A stretch of 64,000 bases of DNA, from assembly GCA_036245525.1 (NCBI GenBank), contig BTPG01000002.1, positions 119,496,082 to 119,560,081 of the forward strand. The letters are read 5' to 3'. The DNA comes from Semisulcospira habei. Its lineage: Eukaryota > Mollusca > Gastropoda > Semisulcospiridae. A model generated the notes under the pieces. That model had not been told where the DNA came from. It did no database searches and saw only the letters and a list, made by a program, of their open reading frames with translations. Shown in pieces: positions 6,201 to 58,355 of the stretch; the first letter of the stretch is position 1; each line of letters starts with the position of its first letter. The translations under genes were made by a program, and so were the position numbers.

Positions 6201-9200
6201 AGGCTGGCAAAAGCGAACAGCGCTTTCGGGCGACTTTTCAAGCGGGTGTGGCACAATCAACAGCTGAAAACAGGCACCAAGATCAGCGTGTACAGAGCTG
6301 TGGTCCTCACCACCCTGCTGTATGGTTCTGAGTCCTGGGCCCTCTACCGCAGCCAACTACGACTCCTCGAACGCTTCCACCAGCGCTGCCTGCGTACCAT
6401 CCTGGGCATTCACTGGAGTGACTATGTCACCAACGTCGAGGTCCTTGAACAGGCTGAAACTGTGAGCATCGAGGCTTTGCTGTTGCGGACACAGCTCCGC
6501 TGGGCGGGGCATGTCTCCAGGATGGAGGATCATCGCCTACCAAAGATCACCCTGTTCGGCGAGCTTGCTACTGGACACCGTGACAGAGGGGCACCAAAGA
6601 AGAGATACAAAGACTGTCTCAAGAAGTCACTTAGTGCCTGCCAAATCGACCACCACCAGTGGTCTTCGCTTGCTGCGGACCGTGACACCTGGCGCTCCAC
6701 CATTTACAAGGCAGCTGTCTCCTTTGAGGACTCTCACAGAGCTAGCCTTAGGACAAGCGGCTCAGGAGAAAAAACATAGATGCCGCAGCTCAGAACCCCA
6801 GCCATACCTTCCCCTGCAGCCACTGCGGTCGAACCTGCCTGTCTCGGATTGGCCTCCGCAGCCACGAACAAGCTTGCAGACGTCGTGGGCAACTCCTATA
6901 AAATCTTCGTTCGCGAAGTCAAGCCAAGAGAGAGAGATTATTCACTGTAAACAGTAGCGTAGGAAGATATTTTTCATTGAAGTATGGAGGGGGGAGAGGG
7001 GAGGGGGAATGCCAACGTGCCTTACATGTTACTTTCCAGCCTCCAAAATATTAAAGTCCAAAGTCCTAGGGAACAATCAGACACAATAATCTTTATATTT
7101 TTTTTGTCTCCAACCCAAACATTTGGCACAAAAGATTTGTTCACTGGAAAGAGTGAGGTGGGGGTCGGGTGGGGTGGTGGGTGGCAGGCAGGATTCTCTG
7201 GCCCACACCCATACATTTTCACTGGCTCAGGGGGAGGGGGAGGAAGGGGCAAGGCTCACCCTCTCCCCCCCGACCCCCCCACCCCCTTCCCCTGCCACTG
7301 CCTGCATCAGATAGTGCTTACTTGATGGTGATTCTGATTCAAGTTTTGCAAACAAATATTTTGTGTTTTTTAAGGCTGAATATTGCTCCGAATGTCTTAT
7401 TGCTGCATGTGTGTCAATTCCAGGTATTCTCATTATTCTCTTCGACATCCTGGTTCAGGAAATCGATCCTAAGCTGCTGGTAAGTCCTGGACACCCGGGT
7501 ACCCAGTCTGCAAAGGTTCCCGAGCTCACGAGAGCCGCAGTGGGCCCGCGCACAGCTGTGCACGGGCCCACTGTAGCCGTCGTGAGCCAAAGACGTTTAG
7601 CTACTTGGAATATATTTCTCGTTGTTTGCTTGACTGTCATTCCTTCTATCTGTCTGTCTGTCTGTCTTTTTGTGCGCCCGTCCGCATATCTGGAGGCGCC
7701 AAGCTCTCCCTTGTGAATGCCAAAAGTATTAAGTCCATTAAAAAAAAATCAAAACGTTAACCCATTTAGCCCGGAAGCGCTACAACAAAACATGGATCGA
7801 CCATGATAATTCAATGGCAGTACCGGATTAGCTTGGCGCCATACGTGACCCGGGACCTTTCGGACGAGAGTCGAACGCTCTATCACCTGAGCTCTACCAG
7901 CTGCCCTACGAAAAAGCGAAATTTGTATTGTAATGCAATGAAAATCTAGCTTTTCGCAAAAACATACTTTCTATCTTTGGGTAGAGCTATTCTGGCACCA
8001 TCATTAACTCATTCAGCCCGAAGGCCGTATTTCCCAAATTTTGGAGGAGTCATCTAATGACTATGCACCAGTTGCAGGAGATAGATCGACCATGATATTC
8101 AAGAGCAGTGCCAGATTAGCTTAGCTGTAGTGCGTCAGGGCTGAATGGATTAAGCTGTGAAGGTCAAGACACCTTCTATTGCACTGTGCATATAGACAGG
8201 ATGCGTTTCAGTCCTTATTTGGGCCACTCTCAAAGTTGAATGCTTTAACTCATTCTACCCCAGACACACCACAGCAAGATAAGGATCAACCATGATAGTT
8301 CAAGGGTGATGCCAGAATAACTTGGCGCCTATGGGCGCCAAGCTATTCTGGCATCACCCTTGAACTATCATGGTCGATCTGTGTCCTGCACTAGAGTGCA
8401 GTCTTCAGAGGACAAGGGCAAAACTTGGGGATTTCGGTGTTGGGGTAGAATGAGTTAACTCAACCTGCTACTGCTTATACCGCTCGGCGGAAGTGACGTG
8501 TCACCACACGTCACTTCCGCCCAGTGGCATCATCAGTCACAACAAAGACCTCGCACATGAAGCTTATCATGCATGGTATTTGGCAGCAGTCAAGGGAGTA
8601 ACTCTTTTGCTGTCGGTAGCGGTTTTTGTCGAGGAGATTCTGACAGGAATCACCTCGACACAAACCGCTACCGACAGCCAAATGGTTAAGAGAAACCGTA
8701 TACTTTTCTTCACCCAACAGGAACAGTACGCTGGCATGACGGACATCTTCAAGAAGACCCTGTACCTGCTGAAGCTGCTGGCTCGAGAGAACGAAGCAGT
8801 GCAGTTTCACATCTTTGAGCGCCTGGACATCCTGCTGGAGGTCAGGGTCGTGGAGAGCGACCTTGCCATCGCCCTGACAGAGGTCAGCATACGTGCATGT
8901 GTTTTAAAGGCACGACAGTCTACTGTAGGGTAAACACGCTGCGTTGGCCGCTCGATGCTTACACGCTTTTTGCCAGTCATCAAATTGTGCGCTCGGCTGT
9001 AGAGCTGTTTATATATGTCGTTTTTGCCTGTAACCCAGTCACTGCCGGAAAAAAAGCGAACCACCGCCTAACTGCAGGAAGCAAAGAACCTCCCGAGCCC
9101 GCGCAGTTGCGAGGGCTCATGAGCTCCAATGCCTATTGCTGACTTTCTTCATATCTGTTTTCCTTGGATTAATGAAATTGTTCTGTGTTGAATTTGCAGT

Positions 9201-58355: not shown

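Follow-up and report, generated by a model that had tools for sequence, protein, structure and literature searches.

At their tips, published animal piggyBac elements have CCCTT, CCCAT, CCCTC or CACTA, and most of them make a TTAA duplication (PMC10813416). Among MITEs, a piggyBac/TTAA superfamily has been described, which includes the CMITEs of corals, TTAA elements of about 102 bp with tips such as CCCTTTCACTGCCA (PMC2872659), and Kolobok elements likewise duplicate TTAA and have tips beginning AG/RR (PMC6004289); these descriptions are taken from excerpts of the papers cited. We have analysed a window, that is, one whole stretch of 64,000 nucleotides (C2:119496082-119560081), of the Semisulcospira habei genome (1.98 Gb in 507 contigs), in which hairpins with unrelated interiors had been predicted to share one end, TTAACYCWTT, in a layout matching no described group. 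We are highly confident that these hairpins belong, as non-autonomous MITEs of an animal genome, to the piggyBac superfamily; they constitute several new high-copy families of an ordinary, already described kind of element. The claim of an undescribed layout therefore has to be given up, because the ends carry the published piggyBac hallmark (TTAA with CCCTT, CCCAT or CCCTC tips), and the piggyBac/TTAA MITEs, coral CMITEs among them, were already on record in the text available to us (PMC2872659). The one unusual point, and a worthwhile lead, is that the two arms of a hairpin tend, in some of the families, to evolve in concert.

The window is animal DNA rich in repeats. Non-LTR and LTR reverse transcriptases were detected by a Pfam scan of its ORFs, and the ORF at 4353-6779 shares 69-82% identity with proteins named from carp, amphioxus, penaeid and mantis shrimp, sea urchin and others. 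No piggyBac transposase was found by Pfam in 40 ORF stretches (one entered twice) of the 84 stop-to-stop ORFs of at least 95 aa, and ARAGORN reported zero tRNAs in the window. A 205-bp direct repeat of 100% identity (24901-25105 and 29509-29713) flanks reverse transcriptase and integrase ORFs and probably represents the LTRs of a recently inserted LTR retroelement. A separate family of hairpins of about 72 bp each, beginning GTGTGCTGGTCTGTGATTTTGGACCTTACGGC, occurs at 2133, 13422, 32523, 41824, 48788, 51161 and 55090, and its members are without TTAA or CYCWTT ends. Exact searches gave no match to the A or D hairpin pattern in viral contigs, to the A hairpin pattern in prokaryote genomes or to one A element in plasmids.

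TTAA borders, tips and families

TTAA stands at both borders of all seven elements named in the original prediction, as had been claimed, and their fold energies lie 7.5 to 20.1 standard deviations below those of shuffled sequences; among further copies, some have one border mutated. Inverted pairs bounded by TTAA (at least 16 of 20 end bases matching) number 21 in the window, compared with 0 or 1 in each of 20 first-order Markov controls. This count alone is not specific to TTAA, because pairs of the same kind are also bordered by other palindromic 4-mers (GATC 25, CATG 14, TCGA 9, ATAT 303, TATA 328, the last two probably being simple repeats). The specific evidence is the motif TTAACYCWTT, which occurs 35 times in the window where 1.09 occurrences are expected, the maximum over 100 shuffles being 4. 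Alignment of copies places the boundary at the same point: the mean fraction of the commonest base is 0.40 outside TTAA and 0.86-1.00 at TTAA (22 ends of 11 A copies, 14 ends of seven D copies), so that homology in families A and D stops at TTAA.

The common end, abundant as it is, had been drawn too uniformly, since the exact motif is present at only 10 of the 14 named ends: 17783-17977 carries it at neither end, and 48376-48573 and 58074-58165 carry it at one each. One shared end with unrelated interiors is borne out for about ten bases and not beyond these. Terminal inverted repeats of 12-19 bp, the length characteristic of piggyBac/TTAA MITEs, are found in A, B and several D copies, with 13 of 20 bases matching in 48376-48573 and fewer than 12 of 20 in 17783-17977. 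The tips CCCTTT and CCCATT fit the published CC[C/T]T-type motif (also CCCAT, CCCTC and CACTA) directly, and the tips CTCATT and CTCTTT fit those of piggyBacs in this same genome, in agreement with the suggestion that the TTAA ends are piggyBac-like and mark mobile elements.

Members of A, B, C and D match separate places in BLAST comparisons; two further BLAST groups, E and F, coincide for the most part with D, their members being D copies interrupted by other DNA. Family A (13 usable copies from 15 match regions) is 92-93 bp long in most copies and palindromic throughout, and family B is 81 bp long with shorter forms in addition. The two named copies of family C, of 195 and 198 bp, have an off-centre hairpin and ends that diverge after about 10 bp. 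Most complete copies of family D are 213-214 bp long; in this family a 17-bp end repeat encloses a hairpin whose arms measure about 45 bp. A and D are short, homogeneous, non-coding and of high copy number, and G and H (Table 1) are minor further families. Not all of the named elements are the clean hairpins they had been taken for: 8245-8458, 17783-17977 and 48376-48573 are not palindromic over their whole length, the first consisting of a 17-bp inverted end and an internal hairpin (arms of about 45 bp) with unequal flanks. As for the predicted sizes of 54 to about 230 bp, the range from 54 to about 214 bp was confirmed, and three longer pairs of 397-455 bp (7757-8153, 8004-8458 and 49576-50018) have the look of nested or composite elements. 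Judged from its sequence, a stretch at 7840-8000 that resembles a tRNA or a SINE, and in which ARAGORN found no tRNA, appears to interrupt the centre of a D-copy hairpin.

Table 1. TTAA-type elements in the window; family labels (A, B, C, D, G, H) were assigned in this analysis
Coordinates	Strand	Family	Length (bp)	Remarks
1126..1339	-	D	214	
8245..8458	+	D	214	internal hairpin; TTAA at both ends
18152..18365	-	D	214	
37318..37530	+	D	213	TTAA common with A copy 37244-37321
38773..38986	+	D	214	right TTAA common with short B-type hairpin 38983-39039
40733..40946	-	D	214	
43893..44106	+	D	214	mirrored subfamily haplotype
9316..9369	.	B, short form	54	same length as B without the 27 bp between ATCCGGAT repeats (from sequence)
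17706..17786	.	B	81	near-perfect palindrome; single TTAAs common with both neighbours
36252..36332	.	B	81	left border TCAA; subterminal block unlike 17706 in both arms
17783..17977	+	C	195	internal hairpin off-centre
48376..48573	+	C	198	
15616..15707	.	A		within old D-type hairpin (related empty site)
33422..33514	.	A	93	palindrome
37244..37321	.	A	78	middle shortened
39972..40064	.	A	93	
41509..41600	.	A	92	most symmetric of 13 A copies (2 of 46 arm positions differ)
58074..58165	.	A	92	
17645..17709	.	G	65	inverted repeat, TTAA-bounded
12910..13039	.	H	130	left border TTCA
50184..50284	.	H	101	left border CTAA, right border TTTA on + strand

Copy number, insertion and the piggyBacs of the genome

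An exact A end (25 bases) occurs 1358 times in the 1.98 Gb genome, a count in which one copy may figure twice as A is symmetric, and an exact D end (26 bases) occurs 14141 times; the reversed-pattern controls both gave 0. Adjoining elements have a single TTAA in common at 17706, 17783 and 37318 and, by sequence, also at 38983, 50015 and 52738, which is expected if one element inserts into a TTAA beside another. The A copy at 15616-15707 lies within an old D-type hairpin; once its flanks are closed up with a single TTAA between them, their alignment to uninterrupted D copies runs through the junction. This related empty site has about 70% identity and a 2-base gap next to TTAA. Junction-spanning related empty sites were found for one of 60 candidate elements, and for none of the 60 in a stricter run. 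Where related piggyBac copies differed by an insertion, TTAA did not bound it. A further long inverted-repeat element of the window (46128-46659) has a relative in an insertion within a piggyBac copy (L016:510-2206), and about 14 bases are repeated at the junction of that insertion.

Protein-coding relatives were found elsewhere in the genome. A PF13843 profile search of the genome yielded 116 scored matches from 1058 candidates, many with an open frame without a stop, and the loci sampled were eight from the profile search, 20 chosen by place, then four and five more. Six types of element, mostly 2.8-3.4 kb long and labelled PB1-PB6 in this analysis, end in TTAA and CYCWTW or close to it. Their terminal sequences are CCCATATAAGCCTG (PB1), CCCATTATTGCCCA and CCCACTAATGCCCA (PB2), CTCTTACCAGTTC (PB3), CTCTTTGACACCG and CCTTTTGACGCCG (PB4), CTCTTAAACGTT (PB5) and CCCTTTCGYCGCCG (PB6), with the tips CCCATA, CCCATT/CCCACT, CTCTTA, CTCTTT/CCTTTT, CTCTTA and CCCTTT, respectively. 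TTAA adjoins 52 of the 58 piggyBac ends found, although at the PB1-PB5 loci, whose tips were first found by a TTAA-anchored search, it is not independent evidence. At two loci, L014 and L043, the end search found no ends, and their transposases are further lineages. All seven ORFs scanned matched DDE_Tnp_1_7 (E 1e-80 or better), and the PB6 and PB2 proteins, the two ORFs compared with solved structures, both matched piggyBat 9c0f and a chain named 'Transposase', 6x67, which we take to be piggyBac. The genome thus holds autonomous-type piggyBacs in the sense of predicted coding capacity, with open transposase frames inside elements that have both ends. Five PB2 copies (L009-L013) are 99.6-99.9% identical to each other and two PB1 copies (L004 and L005, each with a stop inside the match) are 99.97% identical; piggyBac has therefore spread recently.

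By what is known of piggyBac, a transposase from autonomous copies elsewhere in the genome, where protein-coding piggyBacs with like tips are observed, would bind TTAA-flanked CYCWTT tips such as the piggyBac-type tips of the MITEs, cut the element out and paste it into another TTAA, leaving on both sides the TTAA borders that are seen here. The interiors, which are separate between families, could differ since only the ends would be recognised, and after insertion each copy would decay independently.

The original prediction went further, in that one specialised enzyme was proposed to mobilise all the hairpins as interchangeable cargo. The families do have about 10 terminal bases in common, TTAA included, yet six piggyBac types carry the same short tip with transposases only 25-31% identical (apart from PB1/PB2, 64%, and PB3/PB5, 61-62%), so that they form four widely diverged groups whose common sequence is limited to the first few bases after TTAA. 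The MITE families, for their part, are no longer alike once about base 7 after TTAA is reached, and in a 14-base comparison, weak as it is, their nearest autonomous ends differ: A is closest to PB6 (11 of 14), the end of one type of D is closest to PB2 and that of a second type to PB1 (10 of 14 each), and B and C have no clear nearest end. A tip common to diverged transposase lineages does not imply one enzyme, and we regard the single enzyme as improbable; the shared tip is, as far as the sequences go, the signature of the piggyBac superfamily, and therefore no new mobile system need be assumed. The search for an autonomous element with these ends was successful for TTAA and CYCWTW-like tips (PB1-PB6) and not for an exact A, B, C or D end, which was absent from the sampled piggyBac elements (no identical 14-base end among PB1-PB6, a sample of the piggyBacs of the genome). 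Nor, on 14-base ends, are A, B, C and D recognisable as internal deletions of PB1-PB6, an origin that is not required of MITEs, and among the A, B and longer D matches listed, none lies inside a piggyBac element with two known ends. PB6 copies do lie beside MITEs: the one in L041 is joined through a shared TTAA to an A copy at one end and likewise to a B copy at the other end, and the one in L042 to a B copy (L041:1220-1308, L041:4732-4811 and L042:4522-4602). A similar outward tip thus stands beside 3/3 PB6 ends (three ends only), compared with 1/55 other piggyBac ends and 67/670 TTAA readings in the window. Membership of the Kolobok superfamily would also explain the TTAA target, but its AG/RR tips, as given in the excerpted text (PMC6004289), are unlike the CC and CT found here and in the piggyBacs of this genome, which makes a Kolobok origin very improbable. 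Least credible of all is that unrelated inverted repeats begin at TTAA by chance or through assembly error: other palindromic 4-mers do border inverted pairs in the window, but this explanation is refuted by the motif excess and the thousands of exact end sequences across the genome, and the boundaries that fall at TTAA also speak against it.

Arms of the palindromic families

Arm distances were smaller within copies than between copies in family A (0.163 versus 0.203; 13 copies; permutation p about 1e-4), family B (0.121 versus 0.224; six of 10 copies; p 4e-4) and family D (0.119 versus 0.185; 30 copies; p 2e-5), and not in family C (0.198 versus 0.197; 15 copies; p 0.53), these permutations ignoring relatedness so that the p-values are not literal. 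For the 30 D copies, hairpin centres were picked within 4 bases for the best arm match, and a check anchored on GGCGCC in both arms (19 of the 30 copies) agreed (0.096 versus 0.154; p 2e-5, relatedness again ignored). A D test confined to the window, with 58-base arms, gave 0.200 versus 0.226 (12 copies; p 0.03, on the same terms). Two partial copies (43632 and 56454) were dropped from the A test, four shorter forms (9316, 13910, 38983 and L035) from the B test, and matches without the full core, together with L001, which lies inside L014, from the D test. Non-consensus cells mirrored in the two arms exceeded the expectation under independent arms in A (17 versus 8.8), B (16 versus 6.5) and D (72 versus 30.9), weakly so in the window-only D test (23 versus 19.4), with 8 versus 11.1 in C; one-sided cells outnumber mirrored cells in every family. 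Several D haplotypes are identical in both arms at eight diagnostic columns. The 54-bp B form was considered as a palindrome re-made by template switching and was excluded from that evidence, its length being that left by a 27-bp deletion between ATCCGGAT repeats.

Mirrored changes of this kind in A, B and D, together with the strong folds, are also what would be seen if the hairpins were kept as structured RNA, for example as small-RNA precursors, and the changes were compensatory. However, orientation was possible for 23 of the 30 D copies, and these contain similar numbers of G.T and A.C mismatches (31 and 27), so that no constraint from RNA pairing is apparent; the unoriented G.T/A.C counts (A 25/24, D 33/31, C 27/24) have little meaning because orientation is mixed or undefined. 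Rfam also gave zero families at the gathering threshold in the window, and we consider maintenance as RNA distinctly improbable. The near equality of the two mismatches suggests that arms are corrected at the DNA level by template switching, which at hairpins is the simplest mechanism for mirrored arms that we infer. The palindromic parts of A, B and D would most likely stay symmetric by arm-to-arm template switching during DNA synthesis, each switch transferring what has changed in one arm to its partner, either ahead of amplification of the copy or in the course of it. On balance we lean towards the reading that in palindromic MITE families it is the mirrored haplotype as a whole that diversifies: what changes in one arm would be copied to the other, the arms would evolve in concert as one unit, and new subfamilies would arise in this way. 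If true, this would account for palindromic MITEs staying palindromic, and high-copy MITEs would amount to a natural record, replicated many times, of how templates switch at hairpins, with thousands of copies, should the mirrored arms hold up, as data on that process in DNA. The presence of very abundant palindromic MITEs and recently spread piggyBac lineages in one genome also makes excision testable family by family.

Comparison with described systems

In RNA genes, pairing between arms can arise or be restored by template switching (PMC8794818), and at yeast quasi-palindromes the same process lengthens the stretch over which the arms are identical (PMC3820800), as described in the portions of these papers available to us. 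The likeness to the present families lies in mirrored changes that restore arm identity, and the difference in the setting, RNA genes and yeast quasi-palindromes there and MITEs here; words that start with 'transpos' or 'mite' are absent from the main text of PMC8794818 in the form available to us. No publication on mirrored arm evolution in MITEs was found in a search of mainly open-access literature by title and start of abstract. Xenopus T2-MITEs and Kolobok have the same TTAA target and differ in their AG/RR tips, according to the excerpt used (PMC6004289). PB1-PB6 resemble the MITEs in TTAA and in tips of CYCWTW or close to it, the PB6 tip matching that of family A at 11 of 14 bases, and are unlike them in their length of mostly 2.8-3.4 kb and in encoding DDE_Tnp_1_7 transposases. 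Closest are the coral CMITEs, which, in the part of the report consulted, have the TTAA duplication, CCCTTT-type tips, a length of about 100 bp and non-coding sequence, have piggyBac relatives in the same genome and can adjoin one another, all as here (PMC2872659); the coral tip CCCTTTCACTGCCA agrees at 12 of 14 bases with the left end of 17783-17977 and with that of 48376-48573. In the coral families, as far as that text describes them (PMC2872659), the interior is shared and the ends vary, whereas here the tip is shared and the interiors differ, and here, unlike in the coral elements, the palindrome is nearly complete in A and B, and D contains a large hairpin.
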